Positions 9,109 to 22,602 of a DNA stretch of 52,075 nucleotides are shown here, one piece after another. The stretch's first letter is position 1. Every line of letters starts with the position of its first letter. The DNA lies in assembly GCA_029781035.1 (NCBI GenBank), contig JAKOXK010000016.1:1-52075 (forward strand), read 5' to 3'. The stretch comes from Armatimonadota bacterium (lineage in GTDB: Bacteria; Armatimonadota; Fimbriimonadia; Fimbriimonadales; Fimbriimonadaceae). The notes below the pieces were generated by a model, which worked only from the letters and a program-made list of their open reading frames with translations, searched no databases and had not been told where the DNA came from. A program made the position numbers and the translations under genes.

Positions 9109-9717
9109 GTGGAAGAGGCACTTCGAACCGAGCTCACTACCCTCATCCATTTCATTTACCATCGAGGATGGGCACCAGGGACAGGTGGCAACTTCAGCCG
9201 AGTGCTGTCCCGGGATCCGTTCCGGCTGCTCATCACCCCTACTGGCATCGACAAGGGCAAGCTGCACGTCCACCAACTCCTGATCGTTGACCAAAATGCC
9301 GAGGTCGTTCAGGGGAACCTGCGCCCTTCGGCAGAGACATGGCTCCACATCCCTATCGTCGAAGAGACCGGGGCCGATGTCGTGCTTCACACGCACTCGA
9401 GTTGGAACACGCTTGCCTCTCTGACGCCCGCGCCCGCCTTCCAGATCTCAGGCTTTGAAATGCTCAAGGGTCTTTCCGGAGTGACGACGCACGAACACCG
9501 CGAGACCATTCCGATCCTCGAAAACTCCCAAGACATACCCGCTTTGAGCCGAGTTCTCCGTCAGACTCTTCGTGACCAACCTGAGGTCCACGCGGTTCTT
9601 CTGCGAGGTCACGGACTCTACACCTGGGGCTGTGATATATTCGAAGCCCAACGCCACCTTGAGGTCTTGGAGTTTCTCTTCGAATTGACCTGGAGGGGCC
9701 GCAACCTGGAGGCATAG
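9109..9717 (+). CDS. mtnB: Methylthioribulose-1-phosphate dehydratase
   Basis: 202 aa, class II aldolase/adducin fold. It dehydrates 5-methylthioribulose-1-P to 2,3-diketo-5-methylthiopentyl-1-P in methionine salvage. Visible: the N-terminal 'GWAPGTGGNFSRVL', 'ITPTGIDKG', 'PSAETWLH', the zinc ligands 'HTHSSWN' (His94 and His96) and 'LLRGHGLYTWG' carrying the third His. It starts at a GTG that fits the family N-terminus. Its stop abuts mtnD with no gap. Confidence 0.93.
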   Translation: MEEALRTELTTLIHFIYHRGWAPGTGGNFSRVLSRDPFRLLITPTGIDKGKLHVHQLLIVDQNAEVVQGNLRPSAETWLHIPIVEETGADVVLHTHSSWNTLASLTPAPAFQISGFEMLKGLSGVTTHEHRETIPILENSQDIPALSRVLRQTLRDQPEVHAVLLRGHGLYTWGCDIFEAQRHLEVLEFLFELTWRGRNLEA

Positions 9718-10284
9718 ATGGCAACGCTACGGATTCCCGATCAAGACGTGACGATCACCGACTACGATGAGATCAAGTCCCGTCTGGCAGACATCGGGAT
9801 TGGATACGAAGTGTGGAAACCCAAGTTCCAACTTGAGCAGTCGGCCTCGAGCGAACAGGTGCTAGAAGCCTTCGCTGAGCAAATCAACCAATTGAAGTCG
9901 GAAGGCGGCTACGTGACGGCCGATGTGATCGACCTCTTTCCCGACACGCCGAACTTGGATGCGATGTTGGCGAAGTTCAGTCGCGAGCACTGGCACGATG
10001 AAGACGAAGTCCGGTTCATCATCGAAGGCCGCGGCGTGTTCCACATCCATCCCAAAGAAGGCGAAGTCGTCGCTCTGGAAGTCGAGGAGGGCGACTTGGC
10101 CCGCGTGCCAGCGGGAACTTGGCACTGGTTCGACCTTTGTCAAGAAAAGAGAATTCGGGCCATCAGGCTCTTTCAAGACCCTTCGGGATGGACACCTCGG
10201 TACACCGACAGCGGTGTGGACAAGGGCTATCTGCCGGTCTGCATGGGGATTTCCTTCATTCCGCCCCAACTGGCCCAGCTCTGA
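9718..10284 (+). CDS. mtnD: Acireductone dioxygenase (cupin)
   Basis: 188 aa, converting acireductone plus O2 to 2-oxo-4-methylthiobutanoate and formate (Fe form). The metal ligands are all visible: His91, His93 and Glu97 in 'HWHDEDEVR' and His136 in 'GTWHWFD'. '[11 protein letters not shown]' is the cupin core. Ni- versus Fe-type specificity cannot be read from sequence. It is the second gene of the operon and immediately follows the mtnB stop. Confidence 0.95.
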
Positions 10285-10286
10285 GG

Positions 10287-10961
10287 ATGCACCCGAAGGC
10301 ATTCCTACTCGATATCGAGGGCACCACGACGCCGGTCGACTTTGTCACAAAGACGCTCTTTCCGTTTGCCAGGCGCGGGTTGTCTCGGTACGTGTCCGAC
10401 CATTGGGCGGATCCCGAACTTGAACTTGACGTGAGGGGCCTTGGCCGAGGTAACGCTCCGGACGAATTCAACGATCCAATCGCAGTGACAGATCGCCTCC
10501 TTGAGTTGATGGACGGCGACGTCAAATCGACTCCCCTCAAATCAATCCAGGGAAGAATCTGGGAGGAGGGATACCGGACCGGCCAACTCCAAGGTGCCGT
10601 GTATCCAGACGTTGAGCCTGCCCTACGCCGCTGGAGGGCCAGGGGCGCGACGATTCATATCTACTCATCGGGCAGTGTCCTGGCTCAGAAGCTTCTGTTC
10701 GGGCATTTGCCACAAGGCGACCTGACGCCACTGATCGACTCGTATTTCGACACGACGACAGGACCAAAGCGAGAAGCAACAAGCTACCGTCGGATAGCTG
10801 CTGCGATTGGCGCCTCAGCAGACCAGATCCTCTTCTTGAGCGACGTCCGCGAGGAAGTGGAGGCAGCTCGGGAAGCCGGACTGTCTGCCCGGATCGTTGT
10901 GCGCGAGGGCAACGTCGATAGGGACGCGTACGCGATCTGCACCTTCGACGACATCGAGTAG
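10287..10961 (+). CDS. mtnC: Enolase-phosphatase E1
   Basis: 224 aa, HAD superfamily. It enolises and dephosphorylates diketomethylthiopentyl-1-P to acireductone. HAD motif I is 'FLLDIEGTTTPVDFV' with the nucleophile Asp near residue 9. 'IHIYSSGSVLAQKLLFGH' is motif II, 'TTGPKREATSYRRIA' carries the motif III Lys, and 'ILFLSDVREEVEAA' is motif IV. The start is the ATG at 10287, 2 nt after the mtnD stop, with GAGG just upstream. Confidence 0.94.
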   Translation: MHPKAFLLDIEGTTTPVDFVTKTLFPFARRGLSRYVSDHWADPELELDVRGLGRGNAPDEFNDPIAVTDRLLELMDGDVKSTPLKSIQGRIWEEGYRTGQLQGAVYPDVEPALRRWRARGATIHIYSSGSVLAQKLLFGHLPQGDLTPLIDSYFDTTTGPKREATSYRRIAAAIGASADQILFLSDVREEVEAAREAGLSARIVVREGNVDRDAYAICTFDDIE

Positions 10962-11003: not shown

Positions 11004-12488
11004 CTAGCAGAACTGGAATTCCGGAGAGCCGAACATAAGCCGACAGACTGCGGCCGCGACCCCTCCCGCGTTGGCCTGTGTGACCGCCCCCCCGCTCGCA
11101 TCGCTCGCCGCCTTGACGAGCTGGTCGACTTTCGATCCGGGCAAGTGGGCATCGAAAACGGAGACGAGCCGCGCGACGACGCCGTGGGGCGTCGGGTCTG
11201 CGGCCACGAGGGGGAACACTGGATACCGGATACTTGCTGCACCGCCCTTGGGCGCACCTTTGGCCGCTCCTGCGCCAGGCCCTTGCGCGTCACCAAAGAG
11301 TCGGTCAGCCCACTTCATCCGCTCGACCATGGTCGCCGAACTGATCCAGTGGTTGCCGTACTTCCACCCGGACACGTCCGGCGGATACAGGAGCTCCATC
11401 CCCATCGCTTTTGTCCCCTGCATCGCAATCACAGCCGGGCCTGCAGCCCGGATGCCTTGGATGGTTTCGTCGTCCGCCAGCCGCGTCGCCAAATTCGATC
11501 CTAGGCCGAGTTCCCGCAGTGTCGAGAAGCAGAAAGTGACAGGATTCTTGATCAAGCCTTGTTCGGCCCTCGGCGAAAAGAACTCAGGAGACTCAACGAT
11601 CGCTCGAACCAGAACTTTGATGTCGAGGCCACTTTCCCTGAACCGCTTGGCGACCCGCTCCACCACCTCAGGTTCGGGGTCGGCGTAGGCGAACCACGTC
11701 CAGGCCTTTTGCGCCAAGAACACGGCCGTTCGGGGACTCGAGCAAAGGATCCGGAGGATGTCGTCACCGTCAAAGTTCCCGGATTGACCGAGATACGTCT
11801 TGGAACCGTCGTCGTGCTGATCCTCTCGGAAAATGAAGCCTATTCTCGGAGCTGCCTGCCCTGCCTTCAACTTGGGGCGACCGGCGGGCTTGGCAGGTTC
11901 TACTACCCGGTTGCCCCGTTGAATGCCATAGGTCCATCCTGTAAAGGCCCTGGCGCCCTCCTTGACGTCCTGCTCGGTATAGTTTCCCACGCCCAGGGTG
12001 AAGAGCTCCATCACCTCTCGGGCAAAGTTCTCGTTAGGCTTGCCCTTCTTGTTCTCATGGTTGTCGAGCCAGTAGAGCATCGCAGGGTCTTTGCTGATAT
12101 TCGTTAGAAGATCCTGAAATCTCCCCGCGCAATGGTTGCGCAGACACTCAACATGATCGTGCATCGCTCCAACCGCGTCCACTTTTTCCGCGCTGGTGGC
12201 GAAATGGTTGTGCCAAAAGACAGTGAGTGCGGCTTCAAGAGGACGGTTTGTTGTCAGAAGACGGGCATACCACCAGGCTTGGACACTCTTCATGTTGACG
12301 AGGCCCTTGTTGTTCGCGAAGCGGTCGAGATCGATCTCTGGGTCGGTGACCGAGTCAAAAGCCAGCAACTTGTCCAGGGCTCCCGGAAGACCTCCCTGGA
12401 CGTAGTAATCCAGTTCCTGTTCGCTGGCCCCAAGTCCAAACCTGCGGAGGACATGGGCGACTTTCTCACGGTCAGTCGTGAACGGCAT
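11004..12488 (-). CDS. DUF1800 family protein
   Basis: 494 aa with clear DUF1800 features: the N-terminal 'KVAHVLRRFGLGAS', then 'WWYARLLTTNRPLEAALTVF', 'WHNHFATSAEKV', 'NENFAREVMELFTLGVG' and 'YTEQDVKEGARAFTGW', and near the C-terminus 'YPPDVSGWKYGNHWIS'. The biochemical role of the family is not established. It often sits next to a DUF1501 gene, but here the nearest DUF1501 genes are about 10 and 24 kb away. No classical signal peptide is visible at the chosen start. A large inverted repeat lies between it and the upstream small gene. Confidence 0.85.
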   Translation of the reverse strand: MPFTTDREKVAHVLRRFGLGASEQELDYYVQGGLPGALDKLLAFDSVTDPEIDLDRFANNKGLVNMKSVQAWWYARLLTTNRPLEAALTVFWHNHFATSAEKVDAVGAMHDHVECLRNHCAGRFQDLLTNISKDPAMLYWLDNHENKKGKPNENFAREVMELFTLGVGNYTEQDVKEGARAFTGWTYGIQRGNRVVEPAKPAGRPKLKAGQAAPRIGFIFREDQHDDGSKTYLGQSGNFDGDDILRILCSSPRTAVFLAQKAWTWFAYADPEPEVVERVAKRFRESGLDIKVLVRAIVESPEFFSPRAEQGLIKNPVTFCFSTLRELGLGSNLATRLADDETIQGIRAAGPAVIAMQGTKAMGMELLYPPDVSGWKYGNHWISSATMVERMKWADRLFGDAQGPGAGAAKGAPKGGAASIRYPVFPLVAADPTPHGVVARLVSVFDAHLPGSKVDQLVKAASDASGGAVTQANAGGVAAAVCRLMFGSPEFQFC

Positions 12489-12927: not shown

Positions 12928-13404
12928 ATGAGGGTCAGCCGCCGAAGAGGGGCCATTGTCGTGGCTCAGACCGGCTTTGAGGCGGTCGCAATCAAGCGGC
13001 TCCAGCAGGCTGGACACCGCATCACGGTGCCCAGAGTCCAGGTCGCGAGGATCCTTTCTCGGGCCGACCGGCCCTTGACGGCCTATGGCGTCCACCAGGA
13101 GATCGTGGCCAACGGCGGAAGGGCCGACGTAGTGACTGTCTACAGGGTTCTTGGTACTTTGGTCGAGCTGGGGCTCGTCCATCACATTGGTGTCGTGGAC
13201 GGGTACATGGCTTGTAGCTTGAACGAGTCACACGAGGAGGACACGGAGCACGTTGTCTGTACGAGTTGTGGCCGGGTCACGGAGTTGCCACTTCCCCACG
13301 AAGTCGCTGAGCGCACGGCAGCCCAGTTGAATGAACTGGGCTACTCGCATGCGCAGACCCGGGTCGAGATACTGGCCGTCTGCCCGGCCTGTGCCGTTGA
13401 ATGA
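12928..13404 (+). CDS. Fur-family metalloregulator
   Basis: 158 aa. A winged helix (about 20-90) includes 'GHRITVPRVQVARILSRADR' and 'VVTVYRVLGTLVELGLVHH'. The C-terminal dimerisation domain has two CxxC pairs, 'CTSCG' and 'CPAC', which bind the structural zinc. His residues at 'NESHEEDTEHVV' are candidate sensor ligands. Whether it senses Fe, Zn, Mn or peroxide cannot be read. The start at 12928 gives an N-terminal extension; a GTG at 12961 is an alternative. It is convergent with the HtrA gene, separated by a strong hairpin. Confidence 0.88.
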   Translation: MRVSRRRGAIVVAQTGFEAVAIKRLQQAGHRITVPRVQVARILSRADRPLTAYGVHQEIVANGGRADVVTVYRVLGTLVELGLVHHIGVVDGYMACSLNESHEEDTEHVVCTSCGRVTELPLPHEVAERTAAQLNELGYSHAQTRVEILAVCPACAVE

Positions 13405-13452: not shown

Positions 13453-14991
13453 TTACTCGAACGGCACCGTGACCGTGTAGGCCGACGAGTTTCCGTTCCG
13501 GAATCTGTCGAACTTGACCGTCACTTGGTCGCCCCAGTTCACGCCCGACATCGAGTCCATGACGTCTTGGACGTCCGAGATCTTCTTGCCGTTGACCTCA
13601 GTCAAGACATCGCCAACCTGCATGTTCACCTTGGAAGCGAAGGAGCCGTCATTGACTGAAGTCACCACAACTCCATTGACTCCTGCAGGAATGCCGAACT
13701 GCTTCTTGAGCGTGCCGTCCAACTGCTGCACCATGACGCCAAGCCTTGGTTTGCCGCTGTGGGGAGACTTCGGCTGGTCGTTCGGTGCCTGATCAGGCTG
13801 GTTGAAGAACGGTTGGACGTCTCCGAACGGGTTCACCTGGCCCCTCGGAGAGGTCTGCTGAGTCTCCTTCGGGGGAGCCGCCAGTTTCACGCTCGCCGTC
13901 TTGGTCTGACCATCATGGACATACGTCACGTTGACTGTCTCATTCGGTGAGTGCCTGTACATCGCGATTCGCAGGTCGATCTCGTTCGTGACCGGGTTTT
14001 TGTCGATCTGGGTGATGACGTCCTTATCACGCAAACCAGCTTTGTAGGCCGGGGAACCTGGCTCGACGGAAAGTGCATAGGCGCCACCGTCCATGTGCCA
14101 GTCTTTCTTTTCGAACGGCTTGAGGTCGCGGGGATTGACGCCCAGCATGCCACGGTCGAACTTGCCCGTATCGATGAGCTTGTCGGCAACCGCCTTGACG
14201 ACGTTGCTGGGAATCGCAAAACCGATCCCAGCGTTCGAGCCATTGGTGCTGTTTATCGCTGAATTGACACCGATCACGTCGCCATCCACGTTGATGAGCG
14301 GCCCACCACTATTGCCCGGGTTGATCGAGGCGTCTGTCTGAATCAGACCGGAATAGACGCGAACCTGGCCCGTGCTGGGATCGGGAATCTGTCCCAAGCG
14401 GCCTACTGCACTGACATGTCCGATCGTCACCGTGTCCTCAAGGCCGAACGGCGCACCGATGGCCAAGGCAAGCTGCCCGACACGGACTTGCCCGCTGTTA
14501 GCTAAGGCCAGGGTCGGCAGATCTCTCTGGTCGACTTTGACCACGGCCAGATCGAGTTGAGGGTCGTTCGCGTGGGTCACTTTGCCAATCAGCTCACGTC
14601 CGTCGGCGAGGACGACCTTGACTTTGTCGTTGCCCGCGACCACGTGGTCGTTGGTGACGATCCACCCGTCAGAGCGGTAGACAAAGCCCGAACCTGACTT
14701 GCTTCCCTGAAGCTGTGCCATTGGGTCATTGGAGGCTTTGTCGTCCGTTTCAGACGTGATGAAGACGACGCCTTGCGAGGCGGCTTCTGACAGTGCCGAG
14801 AAAGTCTGGTCCAATTGCTTGAGCGTGGACATGTCGACACCGGTCGAGAGCCCAGCCGTTTTCAGCTTCACCGGCATGAGACTTCCCAAGACGGAAGTGC
14901 CAGGTCGGAAACTCTGACCCAGCACGACTCCACCCACAAGGAGCGCTCCCGCTCCGAGGATCAGCCAAGGTCGATTCATGAAACTACTCAT
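13453..14991 (-). CDS. HtrA/DegQ-type serine protease with two PDZ domains
   Basis: About 512 aa envelope protease/chaperone. An N-terminal membrane anchor ('WLILGAGALLVGGVVLGQ') is followed by the trypsin-like domain with His116 ('TNDHVV'), Asp147 ('LDLAVVKVD') and Ser228 ('GNSGGPL'). PDZ1 lies at about 290-370, then a Gln/Pro-rich linker, then PDZ2 at about 415-490. It sits last in the sigma/anti-sigma/RseB-like operon, as mucD does in Pseudomonas. The start ATG at 14991 is chosen from the membrane anchor; a GTG at 15027 and an ATG at 14979 are alternatives. It may also have its own ECF promoter. Confidence 0.92.
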   Translation of the reverse strand: MSSFMNRPWLILGAGALLVGGVVLGQSFRPGTSVLGSLMPVKLKTAGLSTGVDMSTLKQLDQTFSALSEAASQGVVFITSETDDKASNDPMAQLQGSKSGSGFVYRSDGWIVTNDHVVAGNDKVKVVLADGRELIGKVTHANDPQLDLAVVKVDQRDLPTLALANSGQVRVGQLALAIGAPFGLEDTVTIGHVSAVGRLGQIPDPSTGQVRVYSGLIQTDASINPGNSGGPLINVDGDVIGVNSAINSTNGSNAGIGFAIPSNVVKAVADKLIDTGKFDRGMLGVNPRDLKPFEKKDWHMDGGAYALSVEPGSPAYKAGLRDKDVITQIDKNPVTNEIDLRIAMYRHSPNETVNVTYVHDGQTKTASVKLAAPPKETQQTSPRGQVNPFGDVQPFFNQPDQAPNDQPKSPHSGKPRLGVMVQQLDGTLKKQFGIPAGVNGVVVTSVNDGSFASKVNMQVGDVLTEVNGKKISDVQDVMDSMSGVNWGDQVTVKFDRFRNGNSSAYTVTVPFE

Positions 14992-15093
14992 CTTTTGATT
15001 CCCAATTACCTCTATCGGAGGATTCACTACCCGAGTCGGACTTTTCGGCCATCTTGGGCTTTCGGCCTGGGAGTCCGACTGGAACTAAGAGAA

Positions 15094-15122
15094 CAAACGG
15101 CCTGGACCAATCGAGAAGTTCC
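15094..15122 (-). promoter_or_regulatory. Candidate ECF-sigma promoter before the HtrA-like gene
   Basis: On the minus strand GGAACTT (15122-15116), a 16-nt spacer, then CGTTTG (15099-15094). This matches the general ECF pattern (GGAAC-type -35, CGT-type -10). It begins just past the RseB-like stop and lies about 100 bp before the protease start. No expression data. Confidence 0.35.
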
Positions 15123-15127
15123 GAGTC

Positions 15128-16099
15128 CTAATCGCCCGGCTTCAGGAATCCGTCCAAGATTTTCCTAAGTGTGGACTCGGCAATCTGCTCGCCGGGCACA
15201 GATGTGATGCCGCACGAGACCCCGTACGCGTCTTCGCCCTTGAGCCTGATCTCGTTCGTCGGCTGCTGACGGTTCCGCCACTGGTACACGGTCAGGCTCG
15301 TCATGCCGTCCGATATCTTCACCATCACATAGGAGCGATTCCGTTCCGTGAACAGGTACGAACCCGAGATCTTGAACCCGAGAGGAAGTCTGTCCGGGAG
15401 CCGTGCGGAAAAGCCGACCGCATCCCGCGACTCGTCCGGCTTTGAAAACTTCCTTGGCCCCTCATGGCGCACGACATCGGCATCGCTGGCCTCCTCTGGC
15501 AAGCCAAAGTCGTCTATTGCGGCCAGCGGATCGAAGTCCACAGACTTGGTGTCGAACAGGACGACTCCTGTCGAGTCGTCGGCTCCAATGACGTACTTCA
15601 AGACGACGTCGTGAACGGTGTCCACATACATCCGTCTTGTCGGAATCTGCGACAGATTGGGCTCAATAATGAGCTCGCGGACACGTTGACCTGCGATGGT
15701 GTCCGATCCTCCCATGCGGACCTTGTAGTTCTGAGCCACCAGTTTCATGCGCCACTCGACGGTCGGCTGCATCAGATAGGGCGACGGTTGCACACTCAGA
15801 ATGTCGCGGTCCCTCAGGAAAGTCTTCAGGACTCGACCGTCGTCGATCGACACAATGTCGTTCCTCATAATCGGCGTGATGATCGTCGCCTTGATCCCCT
15901 TCCCTGCGACTGTCTGAACCTTGAGCTTCCATTCGCCGTTCCCGCCCCGGCCCGGCCTCGTCTCGATCCGCATATAGCTGACCGACCGCTGCTTCGAAAG
16001 GACTTGCCGCAACTTGGCAAGGGCATCGGTATCTTCCGACGCAAGTGCCGCCTGGAGGCTGAGGAATGCTGTGACGCAGAGGAGAGCGGTTTTGAGCAA
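15128..16099 (-). CDS. RseB/MucB-like periplasmic regulator
   Basis: About 323 aa. The start is a TTG at 16099 with TAAGG just before it, giving a signal peptide 'LLKTALLCVTAFLSLQAALA'. The N-terminal LolA-like sheet domain (about 25-205) and the C-terminal domain with 'GFSARLPDRLPLGFKISGSY' match the two-domain RseB/MucB architecture. In gamma-proteobacteria RseB binds the anti-sigma factor and senses mislocalised envelope components. The position right after the anti-sigma gene (8-nt gap) supports the same role here. Confidence 0.75.
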   Translation of the reverse strand: MLKTALLCVTAFLSLQAALASEDTDALAKLRQVLSKQRSVSYMRIETRPGRGGNGEWKLKVQTVAGKGIKATIITPIMRNDIVSIDDGRVLKTFLRDRDILSVQPSPYLMQPTVEWRMKLVAQNYKVRMGGSDTIAGQRVRELIIEPNLSQIPTRRMYVDTVHDVVLKYVIGADDSTGVVLFDTKSVDFDPLAAIDDFGLPEEASDADVVRHEGPRKFSKPDESRDAVGFSARLPDRLPLGFKISGSYLFTERNRSYVMVKISDGMTSLTVYQWRNRQQPTNEIRLKGEDAYGVSCGITSVPGEQIAESTLRKILDGFLKPGD

Positions 16100-16106
16100 G
16101 GCGACC

Positions 16107-16559
16107 TTAGCGACCGCCCGCGTACCCGACTGTAACGGCAGGGACACCACCTCCCAGAGGGTCTGTGCCCCAGATGTAGGCGTCGTCTGCGGGCCGCTGC
16201 AACTCACTGTGCGACGCGGTCGCCACCGGTTTCACCGGCTGTTGGACAGGGGTTGATAGCCTAATGGCAAGGAAAGCGGCCGCGGCTGAAGACAGAGCGA
16301 CCAGCCCCATCACGGCCAGTTGCCCTGAAGGTCGGCGGTTCGAAACGAACACCGCCCGATGCAACCGAGCTTCGACTCCGGCAGTGGGCTCCGGCACCTT
16401 CAAGTTGCCGAGCACCAGTTTGACACTGGCCAAAGCTTCAGACTCGGCTCGACAGCTTGGGCACTCTCGAAGATGCTCCCTGACGGCCAATGACTCGACT
16501 CCAGGGAGTTCTCGGTCGAGATACGCGGAGAGCAGGCTGCTCGCGTGGTGGCACGTCAC
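16107..16559 (-). CDS. Anti-sigma factor with zinc-binding (ZAS/zf-HC2) domain
   Basis: 150 aa. The N-terminal ZAS domain shows 'MTCHHASSLLSAYLDRELP' and 'HLRECPSCRAES', the His-x3-Cys-x2-Cys signature. One membrane helix (about 81-100, 'LAVMGLVALSSAAAAFLAIR') is followed by a periplasmic tail of about 50 residues. Its GTG start overlaps the sigma stop by GTGA, so the two are translationally coupled. Expected to hold the ECF sigma at the membrane until proteolysis. Confidence 0.88.
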   Translation of the reverse strand: MTCHHASSLLSAYLDRELPGVESLAVREHLRECPSCRAESEALASVKLVLGNLKVPEPTAGVEARLHRAVFVSNRRPSGQLAVMGLVALSSAAAAFLAIRLSTPVQQPVKPVATASHSELQRPADDAYIWGTDPLGGGVPAVTVGYAGGR

Positions 16560-17164
16560 AGCAGCACCACCTCACCATTGCGCTCAAGGTATTGGCGCAA
16601 CTGCTTGCGCCCGCGATGGATGCGGGATCTGACCGTGCCGATCGAGGTCTGCATCATTTCGGCGATCTCTTCATAAGAGAGGCCCTCGACGTCGGCAAGT
16701 ACGACCGCCGTACGGAATTCAGGGTTCATCGACTTGAGGCCAAGTTGGATCGGCTCCTCCAAAGTGCCTTGCATGGCTGCCGTCTCGACACAAGCGTTCT
16801 CGTCTGGCAAGTCCCATGTCCGGTTGCCGTCCACGCCGCTGGTCTCCATGCTGATTGTCTTGAGCCGAGTTCTCTTACGGACCGAATCGATATGGACGTT
16901 GGTCATGATCCGGTAAAGCCAAGAGGTGAACGGAAGGCTCTCGTCGTATCGGTGGAAGAACCGGTACGCTCGGACGAAGGTCTCCTGCAAAAGGTCTTCG
17001 GCCTCGGTGGCGTTGGACGTGAGCCGGTACGCCATGTTGTAGGCCTGACGGTACGTCTGGCCCATCAGTTTCTCGAAAAGGGGCCGCCGTGCCTCTCGGC
17101 TTTGTGTCAAGCCTTTGACCCAAGTCGCCAACATTGATTGCCTCACAGACCGATACCAGCCCAT
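16556..17164 (-). CDS. ECF RNA polymerase sigma factor (RpoE-like)
   Basis: Up to 202 aa. Region 2 is 'AEDLLQETFVRAYRFFHRYD' and 'FTSWLYRIMTNVHIDSVRKR'; region 4 is 'GLSYEEIAEMMQTSIGTVRS' with 'RIHRGRKQLRQYL'. There is no extra domain. First gene of the sigma/anti-sigma/RseB/HtrA operon. A TAGAAT box overlaps the ATG at 17164 (minus strand 17168-17163), so the true start may be the GTG at 17146 or the ATG at 17134. No clear self-type GGAACTT promoter was found before it. Confidence 0.9.
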   Translation of the reverse strand: MGWYRSVRQSMLATWVKGLTQSREARRPLFEKLMGQTYRQAYNMAYRLTSNATEAEDLLQETFVRAYRFFHRYDESLPFTSWLYRIMTNVHIDSVRKRTRLKTISMETSGVDGNRTWDLPDENACVETAAMQGTLEEPIQLGLKSMNPEFRTAVVLADVEGLSYEEIAEMMQTSIGTVRSRIHRGRKQLRQYLERNGEVVLL

Positions 17165-17215
17165 TCTAGCTCAGGGTTCCCGAACCACAAACGTCCTGGG
17201 CCGTGTCCGGTCCAA

Positions 17216-21156: not shown

Positions 21157-22602
21157 TTACTTGATGAGTTCCTGCACAACCTCACCGTAAACGTCGGTCA
21201 GCCTAAAATCACGCCCTGAGTAGTGGTAAGTCAGCCGCGTATGGTCGACACCCAACAAATGAAGCAGCGTCGCATGGAGGTCATGGACGCTCAGCTCGTC
21301 TTGCTCCACGGTGTAGCCGAGTTCGTCAGTCTGTCCATAACTCAGTCCGGGCTTGAGCCCGCCACCCGCCATCCACATCGTGAAGGCCCGAGGATGGTGG
21401 TCACGGCCCTTATACGTTGATCCGCCCCGTGCCTCGTTCATAGGCGTGCGGCCGAACTCCCCGCCCCAAACAACGATCGTCTCGTCGAGGAGTCCCCGCT
21501 GTTTCAAGTCCTTGATCAAGGCCGCAGCTGCTTTGTCGGTCTCTCGGCACAGTGCGGGCAGACGGTGAACAATGTCGTCGTGCTCGCTGGTGCCGTGGTT
21601 GTCCCACCCCCGGTGGTAGAGCTGCACGAACCGCACGCCGCGTTCGACTAGCCGCCGGGCAAGCAGACAGTTGTTGGCGAAGCTCTTCTTTCCAGGCTCT
21701 GTCCCATACATTTCGTGGATCTCGGCAGGCTCCTTGGCGATGTCCATGAGGTCGGGGACGCTCGATTGCATCCGGTAAGCCAGTTCGTATTGGGCGATCC
21801 GGGTCGCGACTTCCGGATCCAGGGAGTCCTGGAGTTGGATCTCGTTGAGATCCCGGAGGGCGTCCAGCGTGTCCCGGCGGACGTCCGCAGACACGCCGTC
21901 AGGGTTTGACACATAAAGGACGGGATCTCCTTGAGAACGCAGTTCGACGCCTTGATACACGGTGGGCAAGAACCCGCTACTCCAGCAGAACTTGCCTCCG
22001 TCGGGATTGTTCTCGCCACTGATCAAGACAACAAAGCCCGGAAGATCGCGATTTTCCGAACCCAACCCGTACGTGAGCCAACTTCCCATGCTGGGCCGCC
22101 CTGGGATCTGGAAGCCCGTGTTCATGAAGATCTGGGCTGGGGCATGGTTGAACTGGTCGGTGCGCATGGACCTCACGACGGTGATGTCATCGACAACCTC
22201 CTTCAGGTGCGGCAACAACTCACTCACCATCTGGCCGCTCTGCCCAACCTTCTCGAACTTGTAGGGAGATCCCATCAGCTTGGGTTTGCCCCGGATGAAA
22301 GCGAACCTCTCGCCTTTCAGAAGCTCGTCAGGGCACTCCTGTCCGTCGTACTTCTGAAGCGTCGGCTTTGGATCGAGCAGATCCACCTGGCTTGGCGCGC
22401 CAGCCATGAACAAGTAGATGACGGACTTGGCCTTGGCCGGAAACATCGGCTTGCGCGGGTCCATCGGGTTCTTGCGCTGCTGATCTTGAGCCAGTCCGGC
22501 TTCGAGGAACAGGTTCGAGAGAGCCAGCCCACCGATCCCGTAGCCCACTTGTTTGAACAATGTGCGACGGGTCAGCTCGCGCAAGAAGTCCTGGTGATTC
22601 AT
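21157..22602 (-). CDS. DUF1501 family secreted protein
   Basis: 481 aa. The N-terminus '[20 protein letters not shown]' is a twin-arginine-like export signal. The sulfatase/phosphatase-like fold typical of DUF1501 shows in '[20 protein letters not shown]', '[20 protein letters not shown]', '[13 protein letters not shown]', '[14 protein letters not shown]' and '[17 protein letters not shown]'. The gene starts 4 nt after the PSCyt1 gene, the standard planctomycete-type pair. Function of the pair is not established; a role in handling sulfated or complex extracellular polymers is a published suggestion only by association. Confidence 0.9.

Follow-up and report, generated by a model that had tools for sequence, protein, structure and literature searches.

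The DNA analyzed here, referred to as the window, is a stretch of 52,075 nucleotides (nt) from an Armatimonadota bacterium (contig JAKOXK010000016.1 of assembly GCA_029781035.1). The nearest named relatives of the source genome are Fimbriimonadia, Fimbriimonadaceae and Chthonomonas-labelled metagenome-assembled genomes, one of which belongs to the same genus. On the minus strand, from 17134 down to 13453, four neighbouring genes encode an extracytoplasmic function (ECF) sigma factor, a zinc-binding anti-sigma factor (ZAS), a protein resembling RseB/MucB and a protease of the HtrA family (Table 1). A preliminary description of the sequence had recognized these four same-strand genes and had called them a complete envelope stress operon of the RpoE-RseA type. 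The genes were found as described, with corrected starts for sigma, RseB and HtrA. The word complete is too strong, because the operon contains neither an RseC/MucC gene (the gap between rseB and htrA holds only a leader of ~140 nt) nor a gene for a site-1 or site-2 protease, candidates for both being located elsewhere in the genome. The gene after htrA lies on the opposite strand.

Table 1. The operon and its sequence features, in positions of the window
Feature	Position	Strand	Evidence
ECF-type operon promoter	17154..17181	-	GGGAAC 17181-17176, GGTA 17157-17154
ECF sigma factor, SigE-like	16556..17134	-	Sigma70_r2/r4; best NCBIfam model PRK09647 SigE; tree; M11 invariant
ZAS anti-sigma factor, 150 aa	16107..16559	-	zf-HC2 7e-12; GTG start and sigma stop share GTGA
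HxxxCxxC zinc motif, residues 29-36	16452..16475	-	sequence; invariant in the alignment of relatives
Conserved C-terminal tail motif DDAYIWGTDPLGGGVPAVTVGYAGGR	16110..16193	-	leave-one-out tail profile
RseB/MucB-like two-domain exported protein, 323 aa	15128..16099	-	profile and fold comparison
RseB C-terminal domain, LPxGF ... SDGM signature	15131..15481	-	MucB_RseB_C matches in relatives
HtrA/Deg serine protease, two PDZ domains	13453..14991	-	Trypsin_2 3.7e-34; two PDZ_2 stretches

The order of the four genes is intact in 28 of 30 relatives from the same family or order, so the operon is not a chance arrangement. Across the phylum, 257 of 291 Armatimonadota genomes have an RseB-like match, and the triad of sigma, ZAS and RseB was present in 38 of 40 sampled loci, the remaining two being situated near contig ends. 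HtrA as the fourth gene occurs chiefly within the order of the source genome. The preliminary description had made its reading depend on such conservation, and the synteny survey bore it out. In one locus (L016, G033:C133; G, C and L numbers are our handles for genomes, contigs and loci) the anti-sigma frame seems broken after ~50 residues (profile match to residues 1-47 only) with the other three genes intact, which is either an assembly error or a real frameshift. No description of an Armatimonadota operon of this type was found in the literature searched, which was covered in part and did not include the main ECF re-classification paper.

The third gene probably starts at a TTG 7 nt past the anti-sigma stop, which would provide the product with a signal peptide ending in LSLQAALA, followed by SED. 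By itself, the window protein stays below the threshold of Pfam MucB_RseB (17.0 bits, cut-off 22.3) and has no match to MucB_RseB_C. Relatives of the protein occur in 44 of 61 close genomes. Among 30 syntenic relatives, MucB_RseB was matched by 28 (E 0.1 or better, best 6.6e-16) and MucB_RseB_C by 11; when the C-terminal domain was scanned alone, MucB_RseB_C was found in 9 of 20 members (best 1.6e-5). A family profile built from 30 of the relatives matched E. coli RseB in the PDB (2v42, 1.6e-5), reaching from the C-terminal portion of the N-domain through the C-domain, followed by MucB (4e-4 to 5e-4) and the LolA-fold protein TTHA1012 (0.005). With a profile of the C-domain only E. coli RseB chains were retrieved, and these weakly (E 0.26). 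Alignment to E. coli RseB with hhalign gave 6e-7 at ~19% identity.

Fold comparison gave the same picture for the whole protein. The AlphaFold (AF2) model (pLDDT 87, pTM 0.83) retrieved MucB (6e-13) and RseB (1.5e-12) with Foldseek, and it superimposed on both with Z scores of 18.1-19.6 (best MucB 19.6, RseB 18.9) over residues 20-322 with 248-262 residues aligned. LolA proteins reached a Z score of at most ~13 and their alignments ended near residue 214, i.e. they covered the N-domain only. Judged from sequence and predicted structure, the third protein is an RseB/MucB homologue with both domains. The preliminary description had contrasted such a two-domain protein with a generic LolA-like one; it is the former that was found. 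PMC7400510 names four inter-domain residues of MucB: Y119, R146, Y147 and D247. In the alignment, Y119 corresponds to Y124 of the window protein and D247 to D263, both of which are among only seven invariant columns; the chain index of 6in8 was converted to the numbering of MucB with an offset of 17, which was derived in this analysis and fits all four residues. The conservation of Y124 and D263 is suggestive of an RseB-like protein that binds an anti-sigma tail and lipid.

The sigma factor matches Sigma70_r2 (2e-18) and r4_2 (1e-16) of Pfam. Its open frame reaches 17164, but since the promoter extends into the first codons of this frame and M11 is invariant among the five closest sigmas, translation more likely begins at M11 (17134). 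The best NCBIfam model is the actinobacterial SigE (PRK09647/NF007229), which scores ~161 bits and is thus below its cut-off of 265, versus 100 bits for the RpoE model TIGR02939 with a cut-off of 236. In the sigma tree, the sigmas of the window operon type group with actinobacterial SigE (support 86/88), within a group (100/99) which also holds SigH. They stand apart from the other RseB-linked ECF sigmas of the phylum, and this includes the members from other families (L033, L035, L039, L043).

At a near-fixed distance ahead of the sigma gene, 53 of the 55 loci with this type of operon carry GGAAC and, 18 or 19 nt further on, GTA (usually cGTA). GGAAC is present in 52 of 56 upstream regions; shuffled sequences gave a mean of 12.5 and a maximum of 22. 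Within the window, the pattern has a single match. From this conserved promoter before the sigma gene we infer an autoregulated ECF operon.

The anti-sigma factor comprises a cytoplasmic ZAS domain, one transmembrane (TM) helix and an extracytoplasmic tail of ~48 residues. C3, H29, C33 and C36 are invariant in the anti-sigmas of 29 relatives, in line with the zinc anti-sigma that had been proposed for this gene. The model for the RseA/MucA type (NF041468) yields 10.8 bits with a cut-off of 165, and the zinc motif is absent from E. coli RseA. Together with the scores and the tree position of the sigma factor, this means that the label RpoE-RseA has to be replaced.

The tail ends in a conserved motif, DDAYIWGTDPLGGGVPAVTVGYAGGR, which is a candidate recognition site for RseB, for a protease or for both. 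In a leave-one-out tail profile, 33 of 40 loci with RseB scored at least 9.3 bits compared to 1 of 12 without RseB. The tail score is associated with the presence of RseB (Mann-Whitney p 7e-6), but this goes back to at most three independent losses of RseB, for which reason the association is suggestive and significance is out of reach. By eye, the tails of RseB-linked anti-sigmas from Actinomycetota suggested a likeness to the motif; against shuffles the result was mixed and the likeness was not retained.

The fourth gene encodes an HtrA protease with the H-D-S triad, the GNSGGPL sequence and an N-terminal hydrophobic anchor or signal, and the two PDZ domains expected from the preliminary description are present. 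Its start is the ATG at 14991 or the one at 14979, not the GTG at 15027. Against the DegP/HtrA model TIGR02037 it scores 352 bits, below the cut-off of 416. Elsewhere in the genome we found possible partners of such a system, namely LpxC (3e-63) and Omp85 (5e-34) for the outer membrane and, as proteases, a one-PDZ anchored HtrA and an M50-PDZ protease truncated at a contig end. The gene of the RseP-like M50-PDZ protease is apparently split over contig ends (end of G000:C28 and start of C95; L196, L163).

It could be that the two-PDZ HtrA of the operon is itself the site-1 protease and reads the C terminus of the anti-sigma directly, with RseB only tuning the response. Of 52 anti-sigmas encoded in operons of this type, 35 have a terminal Arg (16110-16112 in the window), whether RseB is present or not, versus 10 of 32 in other RseB-linked systems (Fisher p 0.002, calculated on related rows), and tails ending in SAANFxPR remain in loci that have lost RseB. 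However, PDZ ligands usually have hydrophobic C-terminal residues, and the cleaving enzyme of proteobacteria is the one-PDZ DegS/AlgW, for which the anchored one-PDZ HtrA would be the counterpart in this genome. We regard direct reading of the tail by the two-PDZ HtrA as unlikely, although it deserves to be kept in mind.

Nine genomes of Actinomycetota encode a SigE that exceeds the NCBIfam cut-off, and their SigE loci all have the order sigma, ZAS, HtrA; the ZAS gene is directly 3' of the sigma gene and HtrA belongs to the same run of genes, as in the window. In four of them (L234, L235, L236, L274) an RseB is encoded between anti-sigma and HtrA; these RseBs are above the MucB_RseB cut-off and have weak MucB_RseB_C matches. 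The other five, among them two Mycolicibacterium loci, are without RseB. Of other actinobacterial loci first read as SigE, the two compared with NCBIfam proved to be SigH/SigR. No publication on RseB in actinobacterial SigE loci was found in the literature searched, of which coverage was partial. Because of the sigma score, the grouping in the tree and the order shared with Actinomycetota, the closest relative of the operon is, on sequence grounds, the actinobacterial SigE operon; it is an Armatimonadota branch of the SigE-type operon.

The preliminary description had offered an old system or a parallel assembly as explanations for an RseB-like regulator beside a zinc anti-sigma in Armatimonadota. 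The combination is real, yet a third case had been missed, namely the Actinomycetota SigE loci in the same order. If RseB had been recruited separately in Armatimonadota, in the SigE operons of Actinomycetota and in the RpoE operons of proteobacteria, this would agree with the sigma and anti-sigma factors being of different groups in the proteobacterial and the SigE systems, and with the finding that RseB adjoins several ECF groups within Armatimonadota. Such repeated recruitment is nevertheless improbable, since the same sigma type, ZAS, RseB and HtrA occur in one order common to both phyla and the RseB tree follows the division into operon types seen in the sigma tree, with 2-3 changes compared to ~24 in shuffles. 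Horizontal acquisition of a proteobacterial rpoE-rseA-rseB operon would account for the gene order and for the presence of a real RseB homologue; with a sigma and an anti-sigma which are not RpoE/RseA-like, an RseB that far diverged from E. coli RseB and a system distributed phylum-wide, we consider it hardly credible. With its sigma closest to SigE and SigE loci of Actinomycetota in the same order, the operon is not a transplanted rpoE operon, nor did it assemble in isolation.

A second locus with sigma, membrane anti-sigma-like and RseB-like genes exists in the same genome (G000:C94, ~109.1-111.2 kb; L194:3158-5198). It has no HtrA, and its anti-sigma has no recognized zinc domain.

The most likely interpretation of the operon, to which we assign a probability of roughly 0.68, is that of an autoregulated SigE-type extracytoplasmic stress module in which RseB guards the anti-sigma. 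In unstressed cells, the TM-anchored zinc anti-sigma would keep the sigma factor at the membrane while the exported RseB-like protein, by analogy with its homologues, would cover the extracytoplasmic tail. Upon a disturbance of the envelope, the half-barrel cavity of RseB would be occupied by a ligand, for which mislocalised lipids, lipid A or lipoproteins are the probable candidates, and RseB would release the tail. The anti-sigma could then be cut by an HtrA-family protease, either the two-PDZ protease of the operon or the one-PDZ anchored protease encoded elsewhere, and subsequently by an RseP-like site-2 protease. The freed sigma factor would initiate at the GGGAAC-N18/19-GTA promoter and thereby transcribe the operon that encodes it; more HtrA would clear damaged proteins, and more RseB and anti-sigma would reset the switch. 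The binding of RseB to the tail, the ligand, the cleavage cascade and autoregulation in vivo are inferred by analogy.

Several observations weigh against this module. The contact between RseB and the anti-sigma is its weakest link because the tail has no detectable similarity to the tails of MucA and RseA: profile scores against these (the MucA sequence being checked against 6in9) were overall no better than those of shuffles. Genome-wide, the promoter pattern had 17 matches versus 41 in a reversed control, i.e. no enrichment, and a wider regulon derived from the pattern was dropped for this reason. Furthermore, Armatimonadota have lost RseB about three times, and 5 of 9 SigE loci of Actinomycetota do without it, with sigma, anti-sigma and HtrA staying in place. 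The Armatimonadota loci with sigma, ZAS and HtrA only fall into three groups: a clade with seven loci (L077 and an order-level family of the genome set), one genus of the source genome's own family with four genomes (G139, G141, G142, G144), and G012. RseB is therefore dispensable.

These losses also speak for the possibility that the RseB-like protein is an effector, i.e. a LolA-type carrier of lipids or lipoproteins which is under the control of the sigma factor, with regulation being exerted by anti-sigma and protease alone. The N-domain has the half-barrel fold of LolA, as the LolA superpositions illustrate, and SigE of mycobacteria functions without RseB (PMC10027907). Yet the RseB-specific second domain is conserved phylum-wide, RseB directly follows the anti-sigma in 38 of the 40 loci sampled across the phylum, and the tail motif mostly fades when RseB is lost. 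A pure carrier role appears rather unlikely to us, and we prefer an RseB that guards the anti-sigma.

The surroundings of the operon were inspected by eye. A Fur-family-like regulator on the plus strand (12928-13404) is convergent with the operon end. Frames resembling mtnB, mtnD and mtnC, also on the plus strand (9109-10961), are reminiscent of a methionine-salvage cluster, and DUF1800- and DUF1501-like proteins (11004-12488 and 21157-22602) flank the region.

RseB is known as the lipid and lipopolysaccharide (LPS) arm of the proteobacterial sigma-E response. The two-domain RseB seen throughout Armatimonadota and in several SigE loci of Actinomycetota, coupled there to a sigma of the SigE type and a zinc anti-sigma, would provide a concrete ancestral form for both RpoE-RseAB and the mycobacterial SigE-RseA-HtrA system. 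Possibly, the order sigE-ZAS-rseB-htrA was ancestral to Armatimonadota and Actinomycetota and RseB was lost in mycobacteria and others, so that proteobacteria would have specialised an older lipid or lipoprotein sensor for LPS; we put this forward tentatively. If it were true, RseB of the Actinomycetota that keep it must sense a ligand other than LPS, as these are generally monoderm or without LPS. Loci with and without RseB offer natural comparisons, and the signal of RseB in LPS-free cells becomes a testable question.

Among the known systems, LolA, LppX and TTHA1012 (2yzy) share the N-terminal half-barrel fold with the third protein of the operon, but they have no RseB C-terminal domain and no tie to a sigma/anti-sigma pair. 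The other ECF-ZAS-RseB loci of Armatimonadota (L031-L070) have the order sigma, anti-sigma, RseB in common with the window; these loci, like that on G000:C94, belong to different ECF groups, mostly have no HtrA and carry the tail motif QH...PLxDD. The likeness to algU-mucA-mucB-mucD, on which the preliminary description had relied, holds for the order, for RseB and for the two-PDZ HtrA, which Pseudomonas has as MucD, but not for the types of sigma and anti-sigma. Pseudomonas algU-mucA-mucB-mucC-mucD and E. coli rpoE-rseA-rseB-rseC likewise have the order sigma, membrane anti-sigma, RseB, and the RseB/MucB fold with both domains is common to all. In contrast, the sigma of the window is outside the RpoE/AlgU group, no counterpart of RseC/MucC is present, and the anti-sigma is a ZAS with a short tail of its own. 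Hence the resemblance to the proteobacterial operon lies in RseB and the architecture.

The actinobacterial SigE locus likewise has a SigE-like ECF sigma, an HxxxCxxC-type anti-sigma directly downstream and HtrA next, and a GGAAC-type -35 element is common to both; the -10 element here reads cGTA. The M. tuberculosis locus reads sigE-rseA-htrA-tatB (PMC10027907), whereas no tatB follows htrA here. The mycobacterial loci have no RseB, and the two Mycolicibacterium anti-sigmas are short (~92 aa after the match start) with no TM tail. The mycobacterial SigE operon thus looks like the operon of the window minus RseB.

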